Positions 17,978 to 45,962 of a DNA stretch of 64,000 nt are shown piece by piece; positions within the stretch are counted from its first letter, which is position 1, and each line of letters starts with the position of its first letter. Made by a program: the position numbers and the translations under genes. The notes beneath the pieces are model-generated. The model had not been told where the DNA came from, searched no databases, and saw only the letters and a program-made list of their open reading frames with translations. Source of the DNA: Bryoerythrophyllum caledonicum (lineage: Eukaryota > Streptophyta > Bryopsida > Pottiales > Pottiaceae); the NCBI GenBank assembly GCA_963971425.1, contig OZ020525.1, positions 17,118,187 to 17,182,186 of the forward strand, written 5' to 3'.

Positions 17978-18544
17978 TGTTGCAAACACAACACCACGAC
18001 CTTGGTGTAGTGGTTTGGATCATGGCACACTGGTGAGGTAGTTGTGAATGCAAGTCCTATTGCCGGCGTGGTGCCTACCACCATAGTCCACCCAATTATG
18101 GTGGGGGGTCCCAAGGCCTCGTTGTATGGGGACCCACAAAGCCCTAGGGGGAAATGACATGTCGATTGTCTTTAAGGCAATTAATGTAGGGAAGCACTTA
18201 GTGTAGAAAAGTGTTTACCCTCGAGAAGGGGAAGTAGTTCTATTACACTAGCCTATGTCCAGTGGCCATATGCTTAGTGAAGAGAATGAACAAACACTAT
18301 ATTTTTCTTCTCTTGCAAACACTACACAAAGCCCTCGAGGGAGATGACATGTCAGTTGTCTCTAAGACAATTAGTGAAGGAAAGCACTTAGTGTAGAAAA
18401 GTGTTTACCCTCGAGAGGGGGAAGTAGTTCTATTACACTAGCCTATGTCCCATGACCATATGCTTAGTAAAGAGAATGAACAAACACTATATTCACACCG
18501 GTCTCCTTCGGAGACCGGAGTTCTTCGTCTTCTGTTGCAAACAC
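17978..18544 (+). mobile_element. tRNA-derived SINE-like element with 12-bp target duplication
   Basis: TGTTGCAAACAC occurs at 17,978-17,989 and again at 18,533-18,544, flanking the element. The 5' part (about 17,998-18,060) resembles a tRNA gene promoter, with TTGGTGTAGTGGTTTGGATC like an A box and GTGAATGCAAGTCC loosely like a B box. The body contains a direct tandem duplication of about 190 bp (copies beginning near 18,134 and 18,325, each opening with ACACAAAGCCCT or CACAAAGCCCT). A strong hairpin, CCGGTCTCC-TTC-GGAGACCGG (18,498-18,518), lies near the 3' end. A third partial TTGCAAACAC at about 18,314 sits at the duplication junction. Confidence 0.6.
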
Positions 18545-26267: not shown

Positions 26268-27483
26268 TTTGCTTCAACTTTGATTGGTATGACAAACAAA
26301 CACATATTGAGAAGTTAAAAAAAAAATACTAAATTGACAATAATACGTCAATATGTAGTCTTCAAATAACTTTCCGACATCCCCAACCTTGTCAAAGAGG
26401 TCAACAAGCGCTTCGGTAGCTCGTCCTATAAAATGTTCTTCACTCTCTTGGAAATTTTTTGACTTGTACATAATTTGTTTCATTCCATAAGCCAAATGTC
26501 GGGCATCTTCATGAGTTCTCATCTTTTCGTTGGCCCTGAGATTTCTATTCTTCAAAACATGCCATAAACATAAGTAAATTTAGATATTTGCTTCTTTCCA
26601 CACGGTCCTGTACAATAACATTCTCATAGATTACTAGTGAAAGACAAACTATAAATCTTGTGTTCACAAAACAAAATCAAGACTCAAAGGTTAAAATTGG
26701 ATAGATAGAGGAACGTAGAGTAGATACTGTATTGCGTCATGAGTGGCATCATTATCATCAACCACAAAGCATGTTGGTATAAAGGTGGGACATTATTGTA
26801 GAAGTTGCTCCTTCACGGTCTTCATGAACATTGTGATACAAGACTCTATCTCACGATTGGTAATAACCCAAGCCGCCAGAAAACCACTACGGTGGTTGTC
26901 ATACACAAGAAATGTGTACAAGTAATATCGGACTCTAGATGTCCCAAATGTTTTATCCAACGAAATTGCGTTCTTATCACCAAAACGGACCATTACCTCA
27001 AGTTGTTGAGGGGTTTGAATTTCCAAAATAAAAGGTTGATCTTCTGGAATACCTGGAACTTCACCTGTCCATTGGTTTATGAAGACAGATTCGCAATTAG
27101 ATTCTATCCAAGATGAAGCACTCTCCGTTTCACTATTGGCCCACTTCCACTTTCCCTTTGCATGACATTTCTCGAGATTTCGAACGTTATCCATTGTCAT
27201 GTAGTCATCTCTCCGCATTAATTCTCCATGGCACTTCCTTTCTTGCCAAACCCTCAAGTGCTCATAAAAAATCTGCTTTGTTGTGAATCCAGCATCAAGG
27301 CGGTTCCAAATGAACACCTTCGCTACCTCAGAGATTCGAGGGACCACTCTTGATGCGCGTGAGTCAGAGCTCCTATCCCCTTCTCCATGCACAACCGAGC
27401 CATCCAACCTTGTATGCTCCATACAGTAGTAAGAAATTGTAGAAGCATCCTTTTCAATATACTCTTGCTTAATTTTGAAATTG
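26268..27483 (-). pseudogene. MULE-type transposase, 3' half (split by the 18.5-kb element)
   Basis: This minus-strand half starts at the insertion point with FKIKQEYIEKDASTISYY and runs through a 209-codon ATG frame (27,422-26,793). It contains AISLDKTFGTSRVRYYLY and FLVYDNHRSGFLAAWVI, matching the first catalytic region of MULE transposases. An in-frame TAA at 26,793-26,795 interrupts it, and the same frame resumes with PTCFVVDDNDATHDAI (second catalytic region). After a presumed intron, YLCLWHVLKN and the C-terminal frame 26,555-26,274 follow. The 5' half lies at 46,437-45,963. The family could also be described as FAR1-like, since FAR1 proteins derive from MULEs. It is inactive because of the TAA and the large insertion. 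Confidence 0.8.
27480..27483. other. left target-site duplication ATTG
   Basis: ATTG immediately before the left terminal inverted repeat. The same ATTG follows the right repeat at 45,959-45,962. Confidence 0.85.
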
Positions 27484-27509
27484 ATGCCATATTTAACTAT
27501 TTCTGGACT
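27484..27509 (+). repeat. left terminal inverted repeat
   Basis: 26 bp beginning ATGCCATATTTAACTATTT, matching the right repeat with one mismatch at 27,503. TCTGGACTA recurs at about 27,501 and 27,520, suggesting a subterminal repeated motif. Confidence 0.9.
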
Positions 27510-27704
27510 ATGAGGTGAATTCTGGACTAAGGACTAAAAGATAGATCCGGAGATGTGCCTCATAAAAGATAATGAAGCATAAAAGTCGAGGAGTTTAGAG
27601 TACTATTCAAGCATTAAATGCATCACCGATGACACTTATGAAGGAAGAAATGGCTAGAGCGACCAAATTTGAATTTAGACAATACGTGAGTCCGTAGCAT
27701 GCAG

Positions 27705-27888
27705 CCGGATATCTCCGGGTAAATATCAAGGTGGAATTCAGAAGAAGAACCGAGTCCTGAGAACAGAAACTGATACATACTGTACATCACAAATGTGTGG
27801 TTAGGAAAAATATGGTAGGGAAAACTGGGACAAAGCTACGGACAGAAAATACTCGCAATTGATAGAACATGCAACCGGATATCTCCGG
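27705..27888. repeat. palindrome copies 1-2 (left subterminal)
   Basis: CCGGATATCTCCGG at 27,705-27,718 and 27,875-27,888, each one base from the consensus CCGGAGATCTCCGG. The first is preceded by CAG. They are the outermost left copies, within about 400 bp of the terminal repeat. Confidence 0.85.
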
Positions 27889-28004
27889 ATGAAATGAGAA
27901 TAAGAGCCCAATACTAAACTGTTTCATTATAAAAAAGTGTCATACAATAAATGAGGGGTGGCCGTTGCTAAGAGACGCGCGTAATCTATGGAAAATCGAT
28001 TCAA

Positions 28005-28454
28005 CTATTCTAATTTAAGTGCTTTACAGATGCCCTCTACCCGTCCAGTATGGTGTCTCCCATAAGTTAGATAATGAACTATAGCCTTTCTAGGATTCTT
28101 GAATGGATCTAGATATGCAACAACACATTTGGGCCACAAATAATGCCTTGTTCGAGGATTAAATGAAGCCTTCTTGAAGATGTGGAGAAACCTAACATAG
28201 GTGGGCCTTCGAGTCTGTTTGCTGGCATAGCAAAAAAGAATATCTGATAAGATGTTTGGGGGCAATAACAATTGGGCCGCCTCCATGAGCCTATCTGGAC
28301 GCATAGGAGACCAGATCCCGACATTGAAATACCGCAGTAGTATTCGAATAACATCTGCCGTGTCATCAAAGGAAGGCAGCTGCGTGGAGCGGGATTTGGC
28401 CGAGTCAAGGACCTCATCCGAGCAGAGAGGACCGCGGAGTGATATTATTATGAC
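28005..28454 (-). CDS. hypothetical protein exon of the 18.5-kb element
   Basis: An exon starts after a strong acceptor (TTTTATTTGCAG, reading minus) at 28,454 and is open for 149 codons to a TAG at 28,007-28,005. If that TAG is also read through, the frame continues about 27 codons to a TAA. It contains TRHYLWPKCVVAYLDPFKNP and is rich in basic and aromatic residues. No recognisable domain. It lies downstream of, and on the same strand as, the ParB-like fusion gene, and may be a further exon of it or a separate gene. I did not find an upstream exon to pair with it. Confidence 0.4.
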   Translation of the reverse strand, partial: VIIISLRGPLCSDEVLDSAKSRSTQLPSFDDTADVIRILLRYFNVGIWSPMRPDRLMEAAQLLLPPNILSDILFCYASKQTRRPTYVRFLHIFKKASFNPRTRHYLWPKCVVAYLDPFKNPRKAIVHYLTYGRHHTGRVEGICKALKLE

Positions 28455-28547
28455 CTGCAAATAAAAGGGCAAGACCATCGAATTAGAAATAGAGCATTGG
28501 AATGAGGAGAAAATATGGTAGGAGGAGTTCAAGTGACACGAATTCGA

Positions 28548-30674
28548 CCGGAGATCTCCGGGTGACCCTCCCAGATCAACGTTCGGCAGTCGAAATGGTC
28601 AGGAGAATACTCAGAAGTGATCACAGATATTGAAAGGTGAAGCTTGGGGGCGAGACACTAACAATAACAAATAAAAAGAAGGACCTCAACAAATAACATT
28701 ACTGAGAACAACATTTATCTTCAAAATTGAATGGTCGAAATCCCACAGACATCCTTGACGTAACATTTACAAAGCATAGAGTTTAAAATAACCAGTATAA
28801 TTCATTGTTCTAAGGAGCCGAAATTATGCCCTTCACCACGGACCGGACCTCTTTGGAATTTTTGTGTACTGGATCACTGGCAAACATCAATGGATGACGT
28901 CTAACAAAGTTGGGAACATCCTCATTTGACGCTAGCAGTACGGAGAGCCATGGAAGAAAAATGGTGGACACCCAGGTATCTTTCGAATTCCCAGTCCATG
29001 ATGGCGGATGAACTGCGCTGAATGTATCGTTAAGGACGTTCTTTAGTGGAGTATCGTCCACAAGCAAGACATCCTTGGGAGACCTGGGCCACGCCTTGGC
29101 GTTGTAAATTGTCAGGTCCTTAAGGAAAATTGGCTTCGATGGATGGGATGGGAGCGTATATGATGTTTTTGTGCAATGGGCCTGCGTCAGGATTGTGACG
29201 CCTTCCGGAATGGCAGCACCTTTCTTGCGCAACTCCTTGATAATATCCACAATATTCTTTTCCAACACACTGCTCCAGAATGAGATAGTAGCCTTCTCTC
29301 CCACGAAGTTCAGGAGTTCAGTGGAACCAGGCCTTACTTTGATGTCTCTCGGTTGTTCCTGTTTGAATTCCCCCCTGTGCACAAGAACTCCATTTAAGTC
29401 AAACACGACATGATAAACCCGATTGGATGTTACCTAATCCTCGGTTGGAGGCTCTCGGACGATCGTAGTAGGCTTCGTCCAACCTGAACCCAAAATACGA
29501 GTACGTAGACTGAGATGAGGAAGTTGTTCAGCAAAGTGAAATTTCAATTATACATATAGAAGTGTTCTGCACTCACAATCCAGAATTGTTGGATGGAAAA
29601 ATGAGCACAATATAGATGATGGCACATAAGTATGAATGTACATATTAGGCACCTGGGACAGTAGGTGGAGTATCCCTAGAAGTCTGAGCTACACCAGAAA
29701 CTTGAGCAGTCTGTGCGGGGTTTCTGTCACCGACATCCTTCGACTGTGTTGATCCTGCGGACCCCTGAATACCCGTAACGAAGTGGTAAGAATAAGGTCT
29801 GCATCCAGTGAACTGTCCTTAGAACAATGAAGAAGGTTTGATGGACAAATAACTATTCACCTTATCTTTTTAGGCCCTTGTCCAAATTGTAGGTGGAGGT
29901 GGAGGAGCTTTCGCCGTAGGATTCTTCGCGATTGCTTTTCTCTTCTCTTTTTGAGCCAGCTGCCCGTGGCTCCGCGGAGGGCTGCGTAGAGGGCTCATAG
30001 CATGTAATTCACGCAATGTTTGCTGCGCCGATGCCTCATCCATCGTTTGATCGGTGCCACGCAACGTCAAGTCTTCGGCACTCTTGCACACAACTTCCAC
30101 TAATGGACGCGTCCTCGAAAGGTTGGCCAACGGGAGATCTCCGGGTGCTCTTTGAGAATCGTCAAAGTCCAGGCGATCGGACATTGCCGTGTCATCGTCC
30201 CGACCAGGCAAAGGAGAACGTGGCATGCCGGAATGCCAACTGGTTTCTTTTTCAGAAGTACCGACTCTAGCGGCCGGAGTAGAGTTGCTTCTCGAACTAG
30301 ACGAGGCTTGCCTGATTGGAAGAGGTGGTTCATCAACGTCTACCTAGATAGGGTGGGATGGCGTACCCGCACCGACGATCCGCGCGGCAATGGCCAAGGA
30401 CTGGAGTCCAATGTTAGGTGCCGCTGATGAACTCGGTTCATACCGCACATCAACTTCAATCATCGTGGCATCATGCGTCTGCGTCACATTGACGAAGTCA
30501 GTGGGAAGAACATTAGGATGCAATTCAAATGAGAACGGTATAATACACCCGGAGATCTCCGGTTCAAAGTGGTCCATGTCTACCGGGTGAACTATATCTG
30601 AGCAAGGCGATGAGAAATATGAGCCCTAATATATGCAGGGCATCCTAAACATATGATCAGCCGGAGATCTCCGG
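28548..30674. repeat. palindrome copies 3-6
   Basis: CCGGAGATCTCCGG is perfect at 28,548-28,561, 30,549-30,562 and 30,661-30,674; CGGGAGATCTCCGG occurs at 30,131-30,144. The copy at 30,131 lies inside exon 4 of the fusion gene and is read on the minus strand as part of APGDLPL. The others are in an intron or between genes. Confidence 0.9.
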
Positions 30675-33600
30675 GTCATGAAGTTTTATTAGCTGTTATA
30701 CCTCGCCGCTGTAGTTCATCCTCGACATTGCCCGTGTTAGAACACCAACGCCTGGGGTTGACCCAGTGATGGCAGTCTCCTTTGACTCCTCTGCAGCGGC
30801 GTCGGGTACGTCGGGTACGTCGGCTAAGAGATTCAAGTGGTACTTGAATATTTCTTCAGCGCAGGATTCTACCTTGAGTTTGGCATCTTCGCTGCTCACA
30901 ATCTCGAGGACCCGGGCGTCGTGAGTCTGCAAGATAAAGCCTGCATAAGGCAACATCCATAAAATATAACTGAAGACGGACCAGAAATCTATGACGTTGA
31001 AGTGCTTGGGAAGGATGTTCTGCTTACCAATCCGAGGTATGTTAAATGTGGTCCACCATGGACATTGACGACCACCATATCCTCTCTAATGAACCCCGTG
31101 AACAGCAAATCAAGGACCGAGATCCTCAGCTGTGGGACACCGGTTTGCTTCCAGCGCTGGATGGTTTCTGGATGTTGAGCAGGTGAATAGAAGGCCTGCA
31201 TTTTGTCTGCGTGGACTTTGTAGAGCCTCTTGAATGACTGAGCAGGCGTCTCGCTCGAGTCGTATTCATATAGGAATATACAATACACTGCCTCCTCGAC
31301 CCCGATTACTGGGGTCGGAAACCAATCACCTGGGTGGGGGAAGTAGTAGACCACATGCGTCGCCCACAATTTCACCTTGCCCCTGGACTCTCTCTGCCGA
31401 AGACTGATGTACCTCTTCAATTCAACGAATCCCGCGACATCGGTGATAAAGACGGACGGTGATCTGACCCTCGTCCTCCCGTCCTTCGTGTCCACTTCCA
31501 GATGGTCGAAAATGGTTCTGAAGTCCAACGCATCCAGGACCTGTGCACGGCATACGTCGTCTTTTACGCGATAGAAGAAAAAGAAGTAAAAGTGAGGGTC
31601 ATTGACGTTACGCCAGTCCTGAATGTCCGGCATGATAAGTACTTTGGCGATCTCGCCCCCTCTCTCTGGCATAACCCTACAGGTGTATTTGGAGTCGAAC
31701 AAGGACTTGTCATCCGTGGGTGTGGCCTCGGCAGCATCCTCAACGATGTGTTGACTCCAGATGGACACAAGGACGTCCGGGGTGGGGTCGGTCTCCTTGT
31801 TGATCGCCTTCAGTCGACCCTCAAGCCAAGCTTTACCCTTGGTAGAGTGATTAGCGGCGTCCACCCAGGACTCGAGCTGAACCCGTCCAATATCCCACTC
31901 TACCGCAAAGGCGTCCCACTGCTCCTTCGTGTAAGAGACGAAGTCAGCAGCCTTTGAGGGAAGGGGGTGAGACTTGTAATTTAACATGAGTTCATTCTTC
32001 ATAGCCCGGATTCTCTTCTCCCTGTTCGCCGCGTTTTCGAGTGTCTCGGCCTGCCCTTTCATAGTACCTTGGTTTGCCGCTTTGGAGGACTTCACACAGA
32101 CCTTCTTCACGAGCACTAACTCCGCGAGGTAGTGAAGGTCTTCAACGCGCATTTTATAGAGTGGCTTGAAGTCGTTCTACACCAAAGGCTTCCGTTTCAA
32201 CTTAGCTGGGTCGCCAGTCTTCCCGTTCGAGTCTGGTAGGAGTCCAACGACGAACATCCTATCGATTACGATCCACTTCTGGACCACCGCGTCATCCATC
32301 TCGAATAGAAGAGGGACCTTCGCGTCTTTTGGGTCAGTTTTGCCGAGGTGAGTGAAAACCGTCGGCACCACTTGCCGTTGAAACGTCTGCAATAATATAT
32401 AACTCAGTGTGTGAGCAGCCGGAGATCTCCGGTAGATTGGATTTGTTGCTTGAAGAATGAGCTCATTGATGAAATTGAAATATATTCAGGTGGAGGATGT
32501 AAGCTTACCGAGAATTCGTCAGATTGTGGACGACCATAGAGTTGGGGGGCGGGTTTCCCGAACTCAAACCACTTCACTCTGCACGTTTGCAGCTGCTCGG
32601 TAAAACTCTGCTCCTTCCGCAGACCCGTCAGATCTTGGTTCAGAGCGCGCGAGAGTTGTAGCAGGGTCATGTCTTTGGGGTTTGGTTTGATCCAAACCGG
32701 GATGATAGAGAAGTGCGATATTTCTTCGAGCGTCCACGTTGATGGCAGTTCGTGTGACAAGATCTTGTGCGCCTCCACAGTATGCTGACCACCAATAATA
32801 TAAAAGTGTGTCGTGTCCCTAAGGCAGTCCTCCTTCGTCGGTTTGGTCGCGAAGAACTCCACCTTAGTTCCGTCAGGTTTATTCTTCAGTGGCAAGACTC
32901 GAATGTGAATCTCTGGGGCCGTGGCCTTCGACGACGCACGAACTGCGTTGATGATTCCTTCGAGCCGTTCTTTTTGGATGCCCCTGTACACTAATCCTCC
33001 AGGGGGGGCCCTATGTAGATTATTGAAATGAACGAGCTTCACGACATTCTTCTTCGTGACAGGGTCTTCTACTGTCAAAGTCTTATTCTTGAGTATGTAT
33101 ATGTTCTTGAACGCGTCGTCGAGAACCTTGCCAATTGCTTCAACTTCAGTCCTCTTCATTTTGGCGAGGTCAGCCTATGTGAAGTTTAGGCACTTTTCGA
33201 TCGCCAGGCCAGGCTCATCGGCCTTCGCTTTCTTTCCCTTCTCTGCCCGCGACGAGGAACCTGGGGTCGAAGTTTTCAAGGTTGTCTTGCGTTTTCTTCC
33301 CGGGGTTGATTTTGGTGTCAGAGACAGAATGGGTGTCGGGTCTGGAACGGGCTTTCGGGACTTTTCTTGTGCTTCTGCCATCCACTTCCACTGCTCATTA
33401 ACGTACGCCGGACTCCATGTATCACTCGTGGGAGGGCTGAATAAGAAGTTCTCATTCTGACATGTCTCCGCCATCTCATCCGAAATCTTAGATGTCTCCA
33501 GAATCAAGCCGTATATGAGAGGCTCGGTGGATGAGTCCACGTTCTCCTGGACGACAAGGAGGCAGACATCGTCGTCAAGACCTTGCATCTGTAGAACCTC

Positions 33601-33835
33601 GAGTCCAATGTCGGGGTGTCCCCGTTTCCCAATCCGAAGTTGGGGGACGTATTCCCAGGCTTCTTCAGGGGTTTTCAAGAGCTTCATTCCCCACTGGGTA
33701 ATGCTCTCTCGGCATTTGTAGACGTAGCCAACATTGTGAATTCCTCTGTAGACAAACTCAGGGAGCTAGAACTCTACAAACGCCCCGAGCTTCCCGGGAC
33801 GACTTTCTGTCGGAAGTGTGGTTGTCCACGAATCC
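28810..33835 (-). CDS. ParB-like / methyltransferase-like / HAD-phosphatase-like fusion protein
   Basis: Exons on the minus strand, all with GT-AG borders and agreeing phases: 33835-32509, 32386-31028, 30926-30702, 30478-29861, 29764-29653 and 29483-28810, about 1,437 codons; the 5' exon with the ATG was not found. Exon 1 carries a ParB/sulfiredoxin-type N-domain (FYIIGGQHTVEAHKIL, then LSRALNQDLTGLRKE). Exons 2-3 look like a beta-class DNA methyltransferase end (AQHPETIQRWKQ, then EDMVVVNVHGGPHLTYLGL, then ARVLEIVSSED), but a clear DPPY is missing; TDVAGF may replace it. Exon 6 is FCP1/HAD-like (VVFDLNGVLVHRG, Lys in IFLKDL, LLVDDTPLK), with Asn for the second motif-I Asp. In-frame TAG at 33766, 33175, 32177, 30344 and 29434 and TAA at 29870 interrupt it. 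It is either a pseudogene or recoded. ParB-like proteins bind palindromic sites; binding to the element's palindromes is inference. Confidence 0.65.
32419..32432. repeat. palindrome copy 7 (in an intron)
   Basis: Perfect CCGGAGATCTCCGG, preceded by CAG, inside the 123-bp intron between exons 1 and 2 of the fusion gene. Confidence 0.9.
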
Positions 33836-34068
33836 CTGCAAGATGAGTTCGAAAGAGCACAAACGCAGTTAGAAATCACTGCAATTGACCAGTAACCTAT
33901 GGAGAGTCCGTCACTCAAAACCGGCTGCATTCCTAGGGATGGATGATAGAAATCGAGCTTCAAAAATATTATATTACAGCCGAAGCAAGGGGAGGTCTTC
34001 GCACAATTATCAGATCTACAGACACTTGACTGATCTTAAATCGCTTGAAGTATCTTGCATGAGCTCAG

Positions 34069-34532
34069 CCGGAGATCTCCGGTTCGTCAGGAACGATCTG
34101 TAGTCGGCGTGAGGGGGTATCGAAACATGCTTGAAACGTCCCGAGATCTACAGCTCTATGTCGGATTGTGAGCAGCAATGGCGTTTGTTTTCGTTTAATT
34201 CCATTGCGAACGTATCCGAAGATCTCCGGCTGATTTGCGGGTGTCGTGTGCATCCGTCCAGGAACGATTCGGTACGTATCAATCGGAGCCACTTCTGTCC
34301 TGAACCGGAGATCTCCGGATGATGACCTGATGGTCGAGTTTCACGATATTCACATCTTCCTACGCGCGTATATAAACTACTTCGTAACGTCCGGAGATCT
34401 CCGGATATTTTTGAGATTTACGAAATCGTGGGAAAATATATCAAGATTCATCATACCTCGACATTATCCGGAGATCTCCGGCTGATTATTGGAACTCCGT
34501 ATTCCGTTCGGGATGCAACCGGAGATCTCCGG
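34069..34532. repeat. palindrome copies 8-13 (densest cluster)
   Basis: Six copies in 464 bp: perfect at 34,069, 34,305, 34,391, 34,468 and 34,519, and CCGAAGATCTCCGG at 34,216 (start positions). The cluster lies just upstream of the minus-strand fusion gene, so it is a candidate operator, nucleation site or divergent promoter. Flank polarity changes here: CAG precedes the first copy, and CTG follows 34,216, 34,468 and 34,519. Confidence 0.9.
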
Positions 34533-34559
34533 CTGATGCAAGTACGGATTAACATTGCA

Positions 34560-36230
34560 CTAATCGCAACTTACCATCACGCGTATATTCACATTCATTC
34601 ACAGAGAAGTTTGACATACTACACTGGAAGTTTTACATACTCAAAATTCATGTTTCAAGTTACAAAACACACTGAGACGAATCAAATGCTCACACAATGC
34701 TTTCAAGAACCGACCTTACACACAAGAAATTGAATCTGCAAATGTTCCGATGGAACGCCAAATGTGACGTTAGCACATGGATTAATCTTGTCACTAAATC
34801 GGACCGGACTTGAAGGACTCAGTATGGACAAGCACATTCTGACGTTCGTACAATACCATCATCACTCGCAAATTCATGATTCGAAACACACTTCTGTTCA
34901 TGGGACATCAAAAATAAAATCGACTATAGCCTAACAGATATTTGAATTCTAGTACTCATCCTCTGAGGTTTCTCTTCATTATTTAAGTGTACTTTGTTGT
35001 CATACACCCGCTAGGAATCAAATGAAAAAACTTGAATCACAATAAAATATAGAATCCACACACAGTCGCTCGGACACAGTGAAAACAGTTCAATGTTGTC
35101 GACTTACCGGTCTCCTTTCCATGATGTCTCACTCGACGTTCCAGCTCCAGTCGCCATTTCCCAACCTCCTTGAGGAACTCCTCGGGATTGAAGCGAATTC
35201 ACAGCTCTGGATGACATCAACGTTCAACAACTCAGCCTCACAAACTCTACAATTTTTCAGATGCCCTAGAATTTCAGGTCCACATTTGATTGACAAGATT
35301 TCCGCGAAATAAATTTCAACACTGCTCATTTACGGATAACATGCTCATTTACACGCATAACATGCATAACATGCTCATTTCCGGACCTTTTATACTGAAT
35401 GCACTGAATACCAGAACCCTATACCCTAAGCCCTACAATTCCGCTTCGACGTCTAACAACATCAGAATTACTCGACTCTTTTGAACCCTAATGGCGCTTA
35501 CCGAACCCTACACCTGCCCCAGTGCCGATTCTAAGCAGTCCTGGGAAACTTCGATATTTGATGACACTGAATTTTAATCTGTGAGACAGTACATACCTCT
35601 TCACTGACCGATTCGGCACACCCGTTCCTCGTGGTCGTTCGTGAAGACGCCACCCTCAACCGCAACGTCGTTTCAGCTTCGCTCGTGAACCGAGGCGCTC
35701 GCTAAATTTAAAAACCTATTTCAATATCTTTGTTCCAGTCCTGCTCTCTGACCTTCAGTCCATATCCAGAAACAACCTCTGGACGATATGCTCAATGTCC
35801 CTCACTTTTATCAACACTCACCTCGTACACCAACAGCCTCTCACAGCGCACACCGCCCTAACCTACTGCGTTGACGCCTACTACGCAAACCACGAAAAAA
35901 ACCCCTCCCACCACTTCCGCTCACTACCTACGACATTACAAAGACAACACCCATAAAAAACAAGAAAGGTTTGATGCTTGGAGTTCCCCTAACCCGATAG
36001 GGACAAGCTGGACGGCTCAAGGGCTGTGACGGCTCATGATGACAGTGGGTGAACTTAAAAATCAGCTCTAATCACGTACATATACAACGTGTACATTTCA
36101 CAATCATGAATTGTCAATGTCGTGAGCATGCGTGACAAGACATATTGATACCCGGATTCCTGGGTATTACATATGGCTACAGTAGATACTCGGGTTCACC
36201 GGGTATTAGAGTAATCATCATACTTGAATT
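34560..36230. other. spacer without a supported gene
   Basis: Unique-looking sequence between the divergent gene blocks of the 18.5-kb element. No palindrome copy and no supported coding frame. The short frames at 35,079-35,329 show no domain. Confidence 0.45.
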
Positions 36231-36239
36231 TAAAACGTC

Positions 36240-37085
36240 ATAAGTGAAAAAGCTTAATCTCCCTCTCCGTTACACTCCCTCCCTTCTTTCCCTCACTTGT
36301 TTTTCTTATTTATGTTTTGCTCTCCCCTCCTTCTCCATCGCCATCTCATTTTTAATCTTGATTCTAGTAGTTTTTAGGCTCCCCGTGATTTCAATAATTA
36401 CACATTCTTAAATTAACCTACTACTCTAAAAATAAATCCCGCACTCTTCCTTGCTTACTCTCCCTCCCTATCCCTTATTCTCCCTCACTTCCTTACTCTC
36501 CCTCTCCATCTCTTTTCTAATTTTGATTTTTTTTTTTATTCCCTAAATTCCCCTAGTGCCATATTCTAAAAATATAAACTACTTTAAAATAAATCCCTCC
36601 CTTACTCTCCCTCTCTTACTCTCCCTCTCTTACTCTCCCTCTCTTACTCTCCCTCTCTGCCTTATTCTCCCTCGCTTACTCTCCCTCCTACTTGTTTTTA
36701 ATTTGTTATACTCTTACTCTCCTCTCCTTCTCCATCTCCATCTCTATTTTCCTTTTGAAGTTTACTTTTTTGGATTTTCCTTCTTTCAATAAATTCACAT
36801 TCTAAAATTAAATAACTACTCTCAAAAACAATCCCGCACTCTGCCTCGCTTACTCTCCCTCCCTATCCCTTATTCTCCCTCCCTACCCCTTATTCTCCCT
36901 CACTTCCTTACTCTCCCTCTCCATCTCTTTTCTAATTTTGACTTTTTTTTTTATTCCCTAAATTCCCCTAGTGGCATATTCTAAAAATATAAACTACTTT
37001 AAAATAAATCCCTCCCTTCCTCTCACTCTCTTACTCTCCTTCTCAATTACTGTCCTTCCCTTACTCTCCCTCTTCCTTGATTTTA
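36240..37085 (+). repeat. CT-rich microsatellite with a ~415-bp tandem duplication
   Basis: Runs of TTACTCTCCCTC dominate. A block ending in CCCTAGTGCCATATTC then AAACTACTTTAAAATAAATC (about 36,540-36,600) is repeated near 36,957-37,013 with the same preceding CT-rich text, giving a tandem duplication of about 415 bp. Not coding. Confidence 0.8.
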
Positions 37086-37779
37086 ATTTATTTTACTTTT
37101 AATTACCCCTCCTACTCAATATCCATCCTTGGTTATTAATATTGTACTATTGAAATAGTAAAATTATTTTTTCTATTCTATTCTATTGCATTATTAAATC
37201 ATGCATAGGTTTCAAAGAGATATATACTTTGTTGTTACCTCTCTTCTTAATTATTTTGTGATATTAAAACTACATTAATGGTTGAACTAATGCGTTGCAA
37301 AGCAAGCCCCAACTCCTAGCCATAGTACTAAAATCATAATTTGCGCCATAAACCACGAAGTGAACTATCGCGTAGTCAACCATGCTGTGAACTACAAAAA
37401 CGCTACTTGAACCGTGGTGTCAACTGTACAGTGAATCATTCCACCTTTCATTTTTTAGTATTTTTAAATATTAAAAATACATAAAAATGGTTGGGCTAAT
37501 GCATTGCAAAGCAAGCGCCAACAGCTAGTCTACTCTAAAATTATATCCATTATCCTCCCTCTCTTCTTTATTCTCCCTCTAACTAAATTATAATGTATCA
37601 AAGTCTTAAATAGTTAAAGTTCAATTATCACTAAATATTCTTACACGCTATTGAATCCAGCTTTTTTAAAGTTATAGTTATTGATAAATTTAAGGTTATA
37701 GTTCATAGTATCAATAAATTTTTAATTTATAGATTTAAAGGTGATATAAGCCCTCGACCTTCATGAACCCAGAACCTTC

Positions 37780-37935
37780 CACGGTGAACCGTAAACCGTG
37801 AACCCTAAACCTTCAACCCCAAAGCGTGAAGTAGAAACCCTAAACCCTAAACCCTAAACTGTAAATAGTGAACCCAAAATTTTAAACCGTAAACCCTAAA
37901 CCTAGACCGTAGACCCTAGACCCTAGACCCGTAAA
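37780..37935 (+). repeat. interstitial telomere-like repeats
   Basis: Perfect and degenerate CCCTAAA units (CCCTAAACCCTAAACCCTAA at about 37,838), flanked by drifted forms such as AACCGTAAACC and GACCCTAGACC. Too short and too decayed to be a true telomere. Confidence 0.8.
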
Positions 37936-38158
37936 TCCTAAAACCGTGATGAACAATCCTGCCTTACCACGGAAGCTGTACCCGTTTTCATAGGACCAGG
38001 TTGCTGTACTTGTAAAAGCATCTGCTCAGTTATATATTTCTGCACGTATCTTCAAAAGTAGACAAATAGCTTCTGTCGAACTAGGAAATTTTGGAGATAT
38101 TTCACATTGGAAACGAATGTCGACGTTCTACTTGTGTCCTGTAGTGTCAATTGAACAA

Positions 38159-39304
38159 CACTACACTAAAAGTTTCATTTAGTGTAGTGCACACTAAATA
38201 CGAACCCATACACTAATTGTCAACTACGCAATTAGTGTAGTGACAAAATAGTACACTAAATGTGAACTACTACACTATTTGTGAACTTTTGTAAACTTGA
38301 TTGGAATATTAACTATTTTACTCGTGCACGTTTAGTGTATTGAAAGTAGAAGAGAATTATGTGTTCTCAAAGGTGAAGAAGAGAAAAAATAAAACTCATA
38401 AACAAAAAATTGGAAAAACAACAATTGCGAAAAAATAATAATTAGGAAAAAACAACAATTTGGGAAAACAACAAATAGGTAAAAACAACATTTTTGCGAA
38501 AACAACAATTAGGGAAAAACATTTAGGAAAAAACAACATTTTTGAAAAAAACAAGAACTATGAAAAAACATCAATTCGGGGAAAAAAGACAACTTACCAT
38601 TTGAAAAGGTAAACTTTTGTAAAAATAAGCTTTCCCAAATGTGAACATTTGAAAAAGTAAAGATTTGATAAAGTAAACGTTTGAAAAAGTGAACTTTTGA
38701 AATAATTTTCTTTTGAAAAAGTGAACTTTTGCGAACGTGAACTATTTCAAAAGTTCACTATTTCAAAGTAAACTTGGAAGAAAGTAAATTTTTGAAAAAG
38801 CTAAGTTTTGAAAAAGTAAGGTTTCGAAGAAGTAAAGTTTTGAAAACGTTATTGTATGGTAAAGTAAATTTTTGAAAAAGTAAATGTTTGGAAAAAGTAA
38901 TTGTATGGTAAAGTAAAGTTTTGAAAAAGTAAATGTTTGGTAAAAGTAATTGTATGGTAAAGTAAAGTTTTGAAAAAGTAAATGTTTGGTAAAAGTAAAT
39001 GTATGGTAAAGTAAAGTTTTGAAAAAATTGATATTTGGAAAAGTAAATTTTGTAAAAGTTAACTTTTTAAGAAGTAAAACGTGAATAAGTAATATCTTGT
39101 AAAAATAAGCTTAAAAAAATAAAATTTCCAGGGAGTGTACTCCGATAAAGTTATCATTGATGAAGTAATTTTTGATCGAATTAACTATTTAGAATGTACA
39201 CTTGTTTGCAATTAGTACACTATTTGTCAAGTTGTTTGCAATTAAAGTACAAAGGTAAGTACACTATTCGTGCCATTACACTAAATGAAACTTTTAGTGT
39301 AGTG
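38159..39304. mobile_element. 1,146-bp nonautonomous TIR element nested in the 18.5-kb element
   Basis: The first and last about 32 bp are inverted repeats with about two differences (outer CACTACACTAAAAGTTTCAT, then TTAGTGTA). Each end is itself partly palindromic (CACTACACTAAA / TTTAGTGTAGTG). The interior is A-rich with no coding capacity. A related left-end sequence is found at 49,612-49,796. No clear target duplication is seen. Confidence 0.7.
38881..39030 (+). repeat. 49-bp tandem repeat
   Basis: Three copies of a 49-bp unit begin at 38,881, 38,930 and 38,979 (TAAATGTTTGG ... GTATGGTAAAGTAAAG ... TTTTGAAAAAG). More degenerate GAAAAAGTAAA units extend left to about 38,600. It lies inside the nested element. 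Confidence 0.85.
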
Positions 39305-39799
39305 GGCAGCAGTGGGCCGACTGTTATCCATGCGTAGGGTATAATTTCATTCACAATGGTGAGTACAAGAAGAATATTACGATTACATTATACTTAGTCC
39401 ATGACGTGATACGGCCCTTGTAATCACAAAGACACACCATGGGGCATACTTCATCTTCCGTTTTCTAATTTGCAACACTCTGGGAACTAGATGGTTTCCT
39501 TACAATACGGTCATCCCACGAGTACGAGCCTTTCATTTATCATGAGTGGAATGTGGCCTCAGTCGTGGGCACGTCGAAGAATGCGCACTATCATGATGGT
39601 GTACAACAGTTACTATGATAGAGTATGCATGCCCAAGATTCGTTTCAAATTTGAGCGCCTGAATTTTTCCACCAGGAGGTGGTGAGGAGGTTGATAAGAG
39701 TATCCTTCAACTCAGCTCTCATCCTTTTTTGCTCTAGAGGTTTGGGATACTGTGGGAGCTGAGCCAGTTAGTGAGAGTGTTTGAGTGCGTGACATCGTG

Positions 39800-40216
39800 C
39801 TAGAATTCTGCAGGGAAACAATTAGACAGTAGGTATTCCAGGAGTGTTAGGATTGTATCCTCGTATAATTTCAAATCGGCATTCAGTTTGATAGGATTGG
39901 TGTAGATTGTGTTTCTCTTCGCCCTCAAAGTCGACCGGAAGCTGTCGTGTAGTGATTCAGTAACTAAATCGTCTCCTAATAAAGAGATAGATCCGGAGCG
40001 CCTAATATATTTCGACTCGAGAAGTAGGATGACGTGACTGATCGGGGTGTGAATCCGAACAGTTCTCAGGGATTGGCGACTGAATCTTTTTGCCACATCC
40101 TCGAATATTCCGTACGGCCGATGTTTCGATAACGACGTTGATGCGAACCGGAGATCTCCGGCTGTTCTAGCCGTGACATTCTGGATTCTGCCATGCTCAC
40201 TTGCAGGCCACGGCAA
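39800..40216 (-). CDS. hypothetical 138-codon ORF
   Basis: Open from 40,216 to 39,800 on the minus strand, crossing a palindrome copy (read as TAGDLRF). The C-terminal part is Leu-rich and of ordinary protein composition (LYEDTILTLLEYLLSN). No domain recognised. It may be an exon, a chance frame or antisense to an upstream exon of the DUF7869-like gene. Confidence 0.25.
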   Translation of the reverse strand: MPWPASEHGRIQNVTARTAGDLRFASTSLSKHRPYGIFEDVAKRFSRQSLRTVRIHTPISHVILLLESKYIRRSGSISLLGDDLVTESLHDSFRSTLRAKRNTIYTNPIKLNADLKLYEDTILTLLEYLLSNCFPAEF

Positions 40217-40444
40217 CTATCCCAAAAACATCTAGCTGTCCCATTTTACGAGCCCAGGGTTCCCGAGGATCTCCGGCTATTCAAAGGCGAGATGATCATT
40301 GAAAGATATCACGGCAGCGTGGTTCGGATGAACCAGAGATCTCCGGTAAGATTCGAATAGAACTTCTAGCTTCACCCTTCACATCCTCACTTACACGAGG
40401 AATCGACGTTGCTGATCAATATCGAGTCATCCAGAGATCTCCGT
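40148..40444. repeat. palindrome copies 14-17
   Basis: Perfect copy at 40,148-40,161. Variants are CCGAGGATCTCCGG (40,263), CCAGAGATCTCCGG (40,333) and CCAGAGATCTCCGT (40,431). The group sits just upstream of the DUF7869-like gene, so it may be part of its promoter. The variants differ mainly in the left half-site. Confidence 0.85.
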
Positions 40445-40603
40445 CTAGACACACCCTACGATTTTGACCATGGTTTTTCAGTTCTAATCCACGTCCACTT
40501 ATTCATGTACTAAGGCCATCGGCCACCAGCCGAACATCGACCGACGGAGGCCGGAAGATTGTCTGACTCTGATTGGTGGGAGAGTGACTCGGACGATCTT
40601 GCC

Positions 40604-43600
40604 ATGGTCGCAGCTCAGTGCCCTGAATTCGGTCGAGCGAATTCTATGGAAGAAGATGATCCATCCGAAGAGTCTACTGGAAGGTCGGAGGTTTTGTGGT
40701 CAGGATTGTCCGTGAACCTCTTGAGGCCAGGCTCAGGCGAAATTGGAGAAGCATCAATTGTCGAGGTTCACCCAGTTGGTCAATGGCTTGGAGTTGACAT
40801 ACCAGTCGGTTCCAGTGAGTTCGTATTACTCAGACCAACGGCCATAACATCTTTGGCGGAAGAGTTTCCACTCATTCCCTTGCAACGCGGATATTGTTCA
40901 CTTGTTCAAACACTTCGGCGGACGGTCCTGTGGAGAAGGGCGGATGTGAAGATTTCAACCGGAGATCTCCGGTCCGACGACTCCCCTTTCGTTCCACGTG
41001 AGCGATGGGTTGGACTTGAAGTGCAGCGATTGGACGGGAATCTGTTAGTACTATGCTCTGGTAGAATCATGGCGTCGTTAGCAGGGGATCACTTCCGAAG
41101 TGGATGCTTGGGAGAAGATAACATTGGTGTAACTGTCCTCGACGTTTTTGTGGGGGACACGGAGAGAATTATGAGTCATGAATCGTGGCCCATTCTTGAA
41201 TGTTGTTTTCCTTCCGGGAGGTCTTTAAAAAGCACAATAGATCATTTCGCATCCCTGCCTTTACAACGTGATTCTGGTGCTTATTTGGGGGGTCGTGCAA
41301 AGGAGGCTTACCGCTTTATTTTCCGACAGCAAGACCTTAACAAGAAAGAATCCTTGTACACCAAGAGGACTATGGATGACGAAATTCGCAAAGTCAGCTC
41401 GGAAAGGTGTTGTCCCAGACGATGCTGCCAATATTTTCAACAATCCCAGACTCTTTCTGTAAGAGAAGAATTCTATGACAAATCCTTTGAAGATCAAAAG
41501 GAGTATGCGATCTCGGTAGGCGGGCAGTTTCACTCAATTGATGGGGACCAGAAGAGAAAGTACGTCACTCTATTAGGAACGGAGGTCTGCTCCGTTGCAT
41601 GGTACACGATCCATGGAATTCGGAAGTCCACGTTTCACTCGTACATCGCACATTTCAGTAGAGGAATCATCAATGCAACTCACGGTAACAAGGGCATCAA
41701 GCGCCCACGGCTTGCCACTATTCAAGCAATGGGGTCAATGACGTCGATTATTAATGACAACGCGGATCAGATGCCTCACCAAATGCGTAGTGTCGGGAAT
41801 GGTCGGATTGACACTCTCAAGTATCTTCCTGCGGGAAACAACTGGAAGCAAATTCGAGCAAGCGTCAATGCTGTAAGTTACTTGTCCCTGCACAATGATA
41901 TGGATTAGATCTCTCTTTCTTCAGTCGACCGAAGTCCTAGTTAGTGAACCGGAGATCTCCGGCTGTGTCAATGTTGAAATGAAATTTCCTTTCTTTGCAA
42001 TACTCTATTCTTCGCCCTGTCTGCTGGATTGTTCTTCTGATATACTCTTCTCACTTGGTAATTATTTCATCTTGCAGACAAACGACTCCTATGGTCTTCC
42101 TCCTGTAAGTCAGTCCACAGTTAGTAGGGTTAGAAAGGAATTTTTCGGGAATGTTGCTATTAAGCCATCTGGAAGCACCTTCGTAAAATGCAGTACTTGC
42201 GATGAATTCAATCAGTTCTTACTGACGACTCCAAAGGGAACGCCCACTTACGAGCTATTCTATAGCAACAGGCAGGCTCACTTGAATCACCAGCAATCTT
42301 GCCGGAAGCTCTACGCGACATGGAGAGAGGAGTCGAAGGCGAAGCCGCTGACCTTTCTTTGTGTCATTCACGACAAGATGGACACTGCGAAGACTGCACT
42401 TCCTCGCATGTGGAGGACTACGAAGGCGACATCTGGTCTTGGACAGCTTTCCATGAATGTCATTGGTATGGTGGCTCACGGTCATGTCGACGGAGCGTAT
42501 GCTCACTATGCTCCTACTTTATGGCCTGGAGATTCGAACGCCACCATCTTCTCCCTGGCAAAACTTTTTCGGCGGCTTGAGGGAGCACCTTTACATGAGA
42601 CGCGCGCGCTCTTCGAGCACCCACCTCCAAACTCGATGTTCGCGGCGCTTATGAGGGGAAAGAGCATGTGCGTGGACGCTTTAGAGCCCGTGGAGCCGAG
42701 TGCTTTTAAGGGACCGAAACCATTGCCACCGAAATTGTTCCTACAGCTTGACAACTCAGCGAAGGATAACAAGAACCAATACTTGATGGCATTCTTATCA
42801 CTGCTAACTGCTCGAGGTGTTTTCAAGGAGATACAGGTTGGCTTCTTGGTAGTTGGACATACGCATGAAGATATTGATGCTTACTTTAGTCATCTTTCAA
42901 AAGAACTGAAGAAAATCAGTACATATATTCTAGCGGATTTGATGAAGGCATTCATGAAGTCACAGAAACTAGCCTTCATGCCGGAAGTTATCCAAGAGGT
43001 CGCCGACTTCAAATCGTATGTCGATGGCTATCTATGCAGCGGGGCGGGATGTCTGGTAGGACTTAGTGATATGTATCTTTTCAAGTTCTTCGTTGACAAT
43101 GACGGTGTTCCGGTCATGAAGTTCAAGAAATCTGCCGTTGACGCAGAGTGGTTACCCATGAACAGAGAGCCGATAAAACTTTGGAAGGTAGATGACTTCG
43201 GACGTCCCATGCTTCCAACAGGATCTCCCAAGCCCGTTCCATTCAAGCCTATATGGGGTAATGAGGAGCAGAGCCCTATTGGAAACCAAGATGTTGCCAG
43301 AGACAAGGCCAGGAAAGCGACGGAGAACAAAAACTTTATAAAGACGGGTCTTCGGAAGTACATTGACTACTGGGCGTCCGGAATGACTAAGTGCGCAGGG
43401 TACGCGGACTCCATTCGCCCATACCTGCAGTACTGGAAGGATGTCATTGACGAGCTTGACAAGCCACTTCCCCAGACGCCTTCCGAACTCGAAGAGGGAT
43501 TCTGGCCTGCCCATGATTGGAGAGGCCCTCATGAGGGAGGTGAAAATCTTCTAGGACTGCTTCCAGAACCAGAGGATGTCACTCCCGAGGATGAGGTTCT

Positions 43601-44015
43601 TGAGCCTTACTGCGGACCCGCTAATGAAGCCCCCAAGTCCACATTTAATCCTTGGCGTGACATTCGTCATGGCTCCTAGGTTTTAGTAAGACCTAGTGAT
43701 CCTGACATCTATCCTGTCTGGCAGGGAAGAGCAGTTTCGGAGGTCGTCAGGGAAGATGGTAATGTCAACTACGGGAAATTCCTTGTTAAGTATTGGGAGC
43801 CTGATAACAAGTAGAAGAATCTGAAGAGGAAGTACCAGGACTGTTGGGAAGCCACTTGGGTTGCGGACCAAGAGAAGCCTGTTTGGTGTCATGTGAGTTC
43901 TGTGTTGTTTGCGACCTGGTCAAGCAAAGTTAACCAACTTACGAGGTCCATTCCACGAAAAATGAAAGAAGCAGCGCTTGTGAACTTAGAGAAAGCGAAT
44001 GCCGCTGATCCCTGA
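40604..44015 (+). CDS. DUF7869-like putative transposase, two in-frame TAGs
   Basis: Exon 1 (open from 40,514; first ATG 40,604) ends at 41,872. The intron 41,873-42,077 has GTAAGT and TTGCAG borders and contains a palindrome copy. Exon 2 runs from 42,078 to TGA 44,013-44,015, through TAG at 43,677 and 43,812. Exon 1 is acidic at its N-terminus and has a HGNKG motif. Exon 2 has VKCSTCDEF plus a His pair (zinc-like), then IHDKMDTAKTALP, FLQLDNSAKDNKNQYLMAF and VVGHTHEDIDAYFS, the signature acidic motifs I associate with DUF7869 proteins; I read them as an RNase H-like catalytic core. After the first TAG a Trp-rich tail continues (VLVRPSDPDIYPVWQGRAVS). As the best transposase candidate in the element, it probably acts on the terminal repeats; this is inference. 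Confidence 0.7.
40959..40972. repeat. palindrome copy 18, inside the coding exon
   Basis: Perfect CCGGAGATCTCCGG within exon 1 of the DUF7869-like gene, read in frame as TGDLRS. A multi-copy site kept inside a coding exon suggests either selection on DNA or tolerance of the peptide. Confidence 0.9.
41949..41962. repeat. palindrome copy 19, inside the intron
   Basis: Perfect CCGGAGATCTCCGG followed by CTG, within the 41,873-42,077 intron of the DUF7869-like gene. Confidence 0.9.
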
Positions 44016-44106
44016 TACGTTTATCAGTCCCTCTACCTATAATTCAGTTCTGTGAAATTCTCTTCGTTTAAAATCTCGAAGAGTTGCTCATTCACACCGA
44101 AGAGCA

Positions 44107-44524
44107 CCGGAGATCTCCGGCTGTGGGCGCTTTTATATATCTGGGCCCAAATTCAGCATCCTTTCTTTCAACTCTTGTCAGTCATCGTGAAGAGGACCGA
44201 AATTGTGCTCTTCCATTCAATGAAATTTGGGTACATTGAGGAGTGACAGAGTTACTGTTGACTCAATTTTACCAGCGGTATATTTTTGGACCCTCACGTC
44301 TTTCTGAAAGCTTACCGGAGATCTCCGGCTATGGAAGTAATATTTTGTGGACCTAAAGATGTTCGTATATTGCCATGTTTCAGTCGGTGAGATCTTGCCG
44401 GAGATCTCCGGATAGGAGATTCACATCCCCCATTCTCGTCAATGGGGTTCCAATTTTGAGCTTCCAAATTATGAGCTTACCTAGGTGTTCTGATTAGTAT
44501 TGAATCATATCCGGAGATCTTCTG
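44107..44524. repeat. palindrome copies 20-23 (3' of the DUF7869-like gene)
   Basis: Perfect copies at 44,107, 44,315 and 44,398 (start positions). A decayed copy, CCGGAGATCTTCTG, lies at 44,511. The first two are followed by CTG or CTA. Confidence 0.9.
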
Positions 44525-44999
44525 TGGTTTCGATAATGCATTTCAATTTACGATGGATGTTTCAACAATGTATCAGAGACCTTTCGGTTATTCCCGTGGC
44601 TGTTTCCTTCTTAGATTTTTGACATGCCATAAGTAAAATGATAATACGCGGTCAATTACACACTTCATATCGGTTGTACGAGGACCTTCTTATCATTGAT
44701 GTGATGCTAATGGTTGGCGGCGGAGATTATACTTCGCACATCACGTTACGACAGCACGCTTGACGGGTCGCCTCCCATGTTGGTCATTCATGTCTGTGGA
44801 AGCTACCTTTATTTTTATCAATCTCGGTGTTATGGCGACTTCTATCAATGACTCATCCTTTACCTACGCTCGAGACCTGTAATTAATGGGTTGGTAGAGA
44901 GGATAGTATAAGAAAGGATTCGGGTCTGCACCAATTCATATGTTTTGTCTTTCAACTTGTTAGTTTTCTTAGTCGATAGCCAGGGTTGAGAGAGAGGAG

Positions 45000-45437
45000 A
45001 TGGCTTTTGCAAGTAGGAAGAGGGAGAGGGAAGAGTCTGATTCGGTAGACCGTAGAGTTTCTCGAAGGATCGTGAGCGACGCTCAGGGTTCAGAGAAGGG
45101 ACGACTGCTACGCTTTCAAGTCGGGTACACAGGGACGATAGGTTCTATTGGGCGTGCTCGGGACGAATTGGAGGAGGACGCTCAGAGCAAGTATGTTCCA
45201 GAGGAGGAGGACGGCAGCGACTATGAAGCGAAGGACGAGAACGAGGTCGACTGTGATGAAGATGAGTCGGTCTTCGGAGGTCGTTTGGTTGAAGATGAGG
45301 AGAAGGACGACCTCTGGTATGTTGACAAGGAGGAATCTTCTTCGGAGGGCGGCTGCAGCCCATTTCAAACTGGTTGTGACACAGGGTCTGATGTTGATTC
45401 GGACATGTACGCGCCGGCGCACTGGAAAGATCTTTAG
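45000..45437 (+). CDS. acidic protein, 145 residues
   Basis: The ATG at 45,000 opens a frame with a basic start (MAFASRKREREESDSVDRR) followed by a strongly acidic region with EEEDGSDYEAKDENEVDCDE and a Cys-containing tail, ending in TAG at 45,435. The composition resembles acidic N-terminal exons of nuclear transposon proteins, such as the start of the DUF7869-like gene. No domain is recognised. It lies about 500 bp inside the right end of the element and is transcribed toward it. Confidence 0.45.
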   Translation: MAFASRKREREESDSVDRRVSRRIVSDAQGSEKGRLLRFQVGYTGTIGSIGRARDELEEDAQSKYVPEEEDGSDYEAKDENEVDCDEDESVFGGRLVEDEEKDDLWYVDKEESSSEGGCSPFQTGCDTGSDVDSDMYAPAHWKDL

Positions 45438-45620
45438 AAGTCTTCAGAGGTAGTGCCAGGATAGGTTTTGCTCTTTCATGTAGGAGTTTCACTGAGACTA
45501 GTCATTGCTGTCTCATAGAGTTGATCAAGTATGTGATGGTCTTGTAAACGGACTCCCTTCCGAAAAAGCAATTTTGTTTTTCAAAGCTGACCAACTGTTT
45601 TCTGTTTTCCCTGCTTTCGA

Positions 45621-45831
45621 CCGGATATCTCCGGCTCTTTTAACGGCATCCATGAAATGTCAATGCCTTCTGCTCTAAGTTCATTTTCTCTAAATTCTTC
45701 CCCTAAGTACTCCCTGGGAAGAAAATCAAGTCAGTACAATTTCTGTCGATAATCCCATAACATGCTTGAGCAAGGTTCTATCACTGTAATCGATTCGTAT
45801 CGTCTGACTGAAATCATCCGGAGATATCCGG
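45621..45831. repeat. palindrome copies 24-25 (right subterminal)
   Basis: CCGGATATCTCCGG at 45,621-45,634 and CCGGAGATATCCGG at 45,818-45,831, the latter followed by CTG. Like the left subterminal pair, each differs from consensus by an A-T change in the centre, so the end copies may form a subtype. Confidence 0.85.
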
Positions 45832-45920
45832 CTGAATGACTAAGTTTATTTTTATTTGTATCCCTCTCAATCTATTGGGTGCCACAATTCTACTACACTG
45901 AAATCCTTCTTTCTTATTTC

Positions 45921-45938
45921 TGGACTTTGCAAAGTCCA
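45921..45938. repeat. 18-bp palindrome overlapping the right terminal repeat
   Basis: TGGACTTTGCAAAGTCCA is a perfect 18-bp palindrome straddling the inner edge of the right terminal repeat. The left end has TGGACT but not the second half. Confidence 0.85.
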
Positions 45939-45958
45939 TAAATAGTTAAATATGGCAT
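45933..45958 (-). repeat. right terminal inverted repeat
   Basis: Reverse complement of the left repeat with one mismatch. Followed by ATTG (45,959-45,962), the right copy of the target duplication. Confidence 0.9.
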
Positions 45959-45962
45959 ATTG

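Follow-up and report, generated by a model that had tools for sequence, protein, structure and literature searches.

We analysed a 64-kb stretch of the Bryoerythrophyllum caledonicum genome (G000:C14:17118187-17182186; hereafter the window, whose own numbering is used throughout). It contains an 18.5-kb DNA transposon with terminal inverted repeats (TIRs) at 27484-45958. Two main genes lie in this element, one for a ParB-like protein and one for a DUF7869 protein, a probable transposase, and the element is dotted with copies of a 14-bp perfect palindrome, CCGGAGATCTCCGG, which is a selected, element-specific site, probably for a dimeric protein. The element is delimited as follows:

27480-27483, no strand: left target-site duplication ATTG, identical to 45959-45962
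27484-27512, plus strand: left TIR, starting ATGCC, 29 nt, 93% complementary to 45930-45958
45930-45958, minus strand: right TIR, ending GGCAT, its last 19 bases free of mismatches in 18 of 18 other right ends
45959-45962, no strand: right target-site duplication ATTG, identical to 27480-27483

The genome holds about 250-290 candidate places for the element, 286 by the left end and 251 by the right end (40 scored for each end). The comparison covered four diverged copies (cp1 to cp4), 33 left ends and 18 right ends, chosen as first listed or best scoring. All 30 left ends examined in sequence, the window copy included, start with ATGCCAT, following different flanks, and a 4-bp target duplication accompanies the 18 other paired copies, exact in 15 and one base off in three. 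Two of the diverged copies have such a duplication (TAGG and ACAA), one is without its left half, and the left end of the fourth could not be placed. With its inverted ends, and with target duplications of 4 bp at locus after locus, this is a TIR DNA transposon (Class II). Target duplications of Sola1 elements are 4 bp long, and we know of no internal palindromes in Sola. Like our element, Sola1 is a DNA transposon reported from a moss, being named for Physcomitrella (PMC9033089).

A mismatch search of the window returned 15 exact CCGGAGATCTCCGG sites, seven with one mismatch and three with two, all within 27705-45831, and no site at up to two mismatches in the rest of the window. Relaxing the search to three mismatches raises the total to 29, against 0.93 expected from shuffles; the four three-mismatch matches lie at 18515 and 22177, outside the element, and at 34140 and 44097, inside it. 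The recount equals the fifteen perfect and ten near-perfect copies claimed by the first-pass annotation, its six-copy cluster is present at 34069-34532, and its statement that the window has none elsewhere holds at up to two mismatches, with two three-mismatch matches outside the element. It had also confined the copies to one element: the sites are indeed all inside, and the element extends beyond the span of the motif that had been given for it. The 25 sites are listed below, with a strand for the variant ones.

27705-27718, plus strand: subterminal variant site CCGGATATCTCCGG, unaltered in 29 of the 33 left ends aligned
27875-27888, plus strand: subterminal variant site CCGGATATCTCCGG, unaltered in 26 of the 33 left ends aligned
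28548-28561: palindrome, exact; exact in 28 of 33 copies
30131-30144: palindrome, one mismatch (second base), within the open reading frame (ORF) 29873-30343; identical form in cp1 and cp2, one change more in cp4
30549-30562: palindrome, exact (motif search)
30661-30674: palindrome, exact (motif search)
32419-32432: palindrome, exact, inferred intron of the ParB-like gene (motif search)
34069-34082: palindrome, exact, in the cluster on the 5′ side of the ParB-like gene (motif search, copy comparison)
34216-34229: palindrome, one mismatch, same cluster (motif search)
34305-34318: palindrome, exact, same cluster (motif search, copy comparison)
34391-34404: palindrome, exact, same cluster (motif search, copy comparison)
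34468-34481: palindrome, exact, same cluster (motif search, copy comparison)
34519-34532: palindrome, exact, same cluster (motif search, copy comparison)
40148-40161: palindrome, exact, 5′ of the DUF7869 gene (motif search, copy comparison)
40263-40276: palindrome, two mismatches in the window copy; counterpart exact in cp1, cp3 and cp4, one mismatch in cp2
40333-40346: palindrome, one mismatch (motif search)
40431-40444: palindrome, two mismatches in the window copy; counterpart exact in cp1 and cp2 (matched by flanking bases)
40959-40972: palindrome, exact, DUF7869 exon 1, where alignment with homologs is poor
41949-41962: palindrome, exact, inferred DUF7869 intron (motif search, copy comparison)
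44107-44120: palindrome, exact (motif search)
44315-44328: palindrome, exact (motif search)
44398-44411: palindrome, exact (motif search)
44511-44524: palindrome, two mismatches; identical degenerate form in cp1 and cp3, three mismatches in cp2 and cp4
45621-45634, plus strand: subterminal variant site CCGGATATCTCCGG (motif search, copy comparison)
45818-45831, minus strand: inverted subterminal variant site (CCGGAGATATCCGG), matched exactly by 16 of 18 other right ends

Putative coding ORFs, by a list of our own, occupy 44.5% of the element minus its nested insertion (about 38163-39300 in the window copy, missing from the four diverged copies) and hold 2 of the 25 sites (p=1.4e-4). The remaining sites precede the two main genes on their 5′ sides, occupy two inferred introns, or fall in intergenic DNA and close to the ends of the element. 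Introns and intergenic DNA had been named correctly in the first-pass annotation; coding exons, named as a third location, contain few. Spacers between the palindromes are unique, and the sites are single rather than in tandem same-orientation arrays. The longest palindrome-free stretch of the element is 34533-40147. Inside it, at the element centre, a CT-rich degenerate tandem array (CTTACTCTCCCTC, 36250-37100) varies between copies.

The palindrome belongs to the element and not to the genome at large. A search of 437 Mb in 894 contigs counted 2718 exact CCGGAGATCTCCGG sites against 3 for a reversed control. Fifty of the 2718 were listed (contig 1, up to 6.79 Mb); they form four groups of 16, 16, 7 and 11, and all of these listed sites are inside four copies of the element. 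Of the 1.5-kb upstream flanks of 30 copies, 29 hold no site at up to two mismatches, and the remaining one (L145) holds 4. In L145 (bases 444-759 after reverse complement), three sites are spaced 86 and 89, like those of the cluster near 34 kb, and this copy is therefore probably nested in another copy's cluster. The motif is thus not frequent outside such elements, an outcome in favour of the first-pass annotation, which an equal frequency there would have refuted, and on the genome-wide count, the listed sites and the nearly empty flanks we rejected the idea that it is general genomic DNA. Matches in viral contigs were likewise set aside: at least 120 stretches matched, and the 80 listed hold one site each, a chance level for a collection of that size. 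In the literature searched (most subscription papers are outside its scope), the 14-mer does not occur; its 10-bp core does, in 58 papers, and among the matches listed none is on transposons by title, nor does any title there point to such an element.

Conservation between copies was followed in the window copy and the four copies carrying the 50 listed sites (three long, one a right half). In cp1 to cp4, in turn, the sites differ at 5/308, 11/336, 2/140 and 17/349 aligned bases (1.6, 3.3, 1.4 and 4.9%), compared with 25.1, 25.9, 28.3 and 19.4% of the 30-bp flanks of the sites, 20.0, 20.2, 21.5 and 14.6% of noncoding DNA, and 10.4, 11.0, 9.1 and 8.1% of coding DNA; sites in stretches that BLAST left unaligned were dropped, with 22, 24, 10 and 25 of 25 kept. 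Sites identical to the window copy number 18, 18, 9 and 14; for random noncoding 14-mers the identical share is 9.7, 9.5, 8.2 and 20.5%. The palindromes are therefore kept in independent copies, which again favours the first-pass annotation, as a lack of such conservation would have refuted it: no random set of noncoding 14-mers was as conserved as the sites (0/10000 in each of the four copies, with the repeat-rich centre left out and one cp4 gap counted as a change, which makes 18). Around 34 kb the sites are kept and the spacers vary, with spacings of 89, 55, 76 and 41 in cp1 and 89, 86, 76 and 51 in cp2. In the 33 aligned left ends, three sites differ by 1.4%, their 60-bp flanks by 2.7% and the remainder by 2.3%, a small contrast that is expected if most changes came after insertion.

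Evidence for the site in other species is indirect. Two of 126 homologous proteins contain [TSPA]GDLR, where composition predicts 0.37 for the peptide and 1.7 for the three readings searched. One, the metagenome homolog P0094, has RSGDLR at the intron place corresponding to the palindrome at 32419-32432, which is compatible with a conserved site; the occurrence in P0050 may be due to chance. At the exonic site the peptide is absent from all eight DUF7869 homologs whose first exon was aligned.

By the column make-up of 104 sites (up to two mismatches, five copies), the conserved site measures 20 bp and reads YAN-CCGGAGATCTCCGG-NTR, its second flank base being A in 70 sites on the left and T in 91 on the right. 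One fixed change, which turns the palindrome into CCGGATATCTCCGG and is inverted in the outermost right site, is present in 18/18 end sites and in 0/86 internal ones of the five copies. There are therefore two classes of sites, which are kept apart.

Settled copies of the element decay in the manner of methylated DNA. C>T changes among the 30 young left ends amount to 3.9% in the CG context, 3.6% in CHG and 1.1% in CHH. The CG and CHG excess is therefore a trace of CG/CHG methylation and identifies the element as a silencing target.

The genes of the element are the following:

28005-28532, minus strand: ORF with no assigned function and no Pfam match
28810-29406, minus strand: NIF/CTD-phosphatase-like ORF (PF03031, E 1.5e-12; score 47.9 bits, cut-off 21.8)
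30989-34035, minus strand: putative ParB/sulfiredoxin-fold gene, limits approximate, from homologs and a fold match; domain at about 32509-33174
40559-43679, plus strand: DUF7869 gene, probable transposase; two exons with inferred splice sites, 40559-41872 and 42078-43676
45003-45437, plus strand: small acidic ORF with no assigned function and no Pfam match

The ParB-like protein matches the ParB/sulfiredoxin fold with moderate confidence. Its gene has an inferred intron at 32391-32508 and, in the window copy, in-frame TAG at 33766, 33175 and 32177, three places that are open in 3/3 other copies holding the region. The DUF7869 gene has an in-frame TAG stop at 43677-43679 where homologs run on. 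A reassigned code with TAG as sense was considered, the left gene being broken by TAG only, and was rejected because its three stops are open in three other copies. It was equally rejected for 43677, which is open in 3/4 other copies and falls in a gap in the fourth, and the mutations in the 30 copies, which fit methylation-type C>T, speak further against it. The best DUF7869 homologs are metagenome proteins of up to 73% identity, and those assigned to an organism come from Physcomitrium, Ceratodon and Riccia; the literature searched, with the scope given above, has no match for DUF7869. No relatives were found for protein P0001 among viral contigs, nor for the DUF7869 exon among public genome contigs, and the window is without a match in Rfam.

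Some further features were observed. The NIF/CTD-phosphatase-like gene is an unusual passenger for a transposon and might act on transcription. The nested insertion at 38163-39300 has inverted ends of its own (CACTACACTAAAAGTTTCATTTAGTGTAGTG) and a core of 16-bp AT-rich repeats. A MULE/FAR1-like transposase fragment (26793-27533, minus strand), below Pfam cut-offs, adjoins the left end, and a weak MULE match is placed at 26796-27422, outside the element. The element may have inserted into an older MULE or next to one.

A perfect palindrome that is conserved, element-specific, mostly noncoding and split into two classes is best read as the site of a dimeric, element-encoded protein. Our preferred explanation, which we put forward tentatively and with somewhat less than even confidence, is that a dimeric protein, most likely one of the element's own, recognises the palindromes, which mark the 18.5-kb transposon as self for anti-silencing and regulation. 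Such a protein would bind along the noncoding DNA of the element, where it would most likely keep the element promoters open against CG/CHG methylation and would also regulate the element genes, and the subterminal variant sites would help in recognising the ends. The ParB/sulfiredoxin-fold protein and the DUF7869 transposase are candidate binders. The dimeric DNA-binding protein suggested in the first-pass annotation agrees with the palindromic shape, while the partition role mentioned there is without direct support.

The most likely role of the palindrome is self-recognition for regulation or anti-silencing, comparable to that of the VANC motifs. Like the VANDAL/VANC system of Arabidopsis, this is a multi-gene, plant-type DNA transposon in which one short motif recurs throughout the noncoding DNA but is seldom met in the rest of the genome. 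The VANC21 motifs of VANDAL21 are located in introns, intergenic DNA and terminal noncoding DNA, with few elsewhere, and direct methylation loss (PMC5735166). The transposases differ, that of VANDAL being a MULE and the transposase-like protein here a DUF7869 protein, and our palindrome is kept across subfamilies, unlike the VANC motifs.

Several observations weigh against this explanation. The VANC motifs are short, non-palindromic, arranged in same-orientation tandem arrays and subject to fast turnover, whereas here we have single palindromes of 14-20 bp. Pfam did not match the VANC domains DUF1985 and DUF287 in the element ORFs scanned, where short exons may be missed. The second flank base is complementary within single sites in 57 cases against 62.8 expected from column make-up; the 20-bp symmetry therefore belongs to the consensus, since the flanks of single sites are not complementary beyond that make-up. 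Finally, the three left-end palindromes decay like the DNA outside them (CG 3.1 vs 3.9%, p=0.56; CHG 2.2 vs 3.6%, p=0.23), and as decay within sites is not significantly slower, there is no sign of lasting protection in settled copies. Such decay is nevertheless compatible with anti-silencing in active copies; an activated VANDAL21 copy is reported to return to silence once the transgene has segregated away (PMC10398659).

Alternatively, the palindromes could be operators of an ordinary autoregulator, an element repressor or activator that acts at its own promoters and limits copy number, with chromatin unaffected. The clusters at 34069-34532 and 40148-40444, 5′ of both divergent gene sets, and the palindromic form of the site would suit such a regulator. 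However, conserved sites also occur in introns, in 3′ regions and close to the two ends, at a long distance from the 5′ regions, and we regard this alternative as unlikely.

More doubtful is a role of the palindromes as binding sites by which the DUF7869 transposase would locate the ends and bring them together, the internal copies serving as sinks or for titration. The transposases of Ac and En/Spm bind subterminal motifs, and the present element resembles Ac/Ds and En/Spm in having a short motif repeated near its ends, with two variant sites near each end that are kept in the compared copies. Against this reading, and unlike the case of Ac/Ds and En/Spm, most palindromes are internal, kilobases away from the ends, and those at the ends form a variant of their own, with a base that is absent internally.

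A ParB/parS-like system, in which the ParB-fold protein would load at the palindromes and slide or spread along the DNA, seems improbable to us. ParB/parS and Noc are bacterial systems of a ParB-fold protein with dispersed palindromes, and a putative ParB-fold protein is likewise encoded here beside many dispersed perfect palindromes; here, however, the setting is a eukaryotic transposon, and the likeness to ParB is a fold match only. An elaboration that we consider just as improbable is that a recruited ParB-fold clamp might spread over 18 kb and open the chromatin, the end variant handing the DNA to the transposase, as a plant parS-like form of self-marking and anti-silencing. Binding by a host protein, as a silencing nucleator or an exploited activator, would agree with the methylation-type decay of settled copies and is very improbable, given that the site is almost absent outside the element in the data examined and that an element would be expected to lose silencing sites, not to keep them.

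To our knowledge, escape of transposons from plant silencing is described in sequence-specific detail for few systems. Here, a palindrome diverges less than coding sequence between copies, and the family has candidate members in the hundreds. If our preferred explanation is true, a sequence-specific chromatin opener with a clear site would be a tool for epigenome editing, and the element may carry a second, apparently independent, dense self-recognition code in a transposon, one written with a single palindrome.

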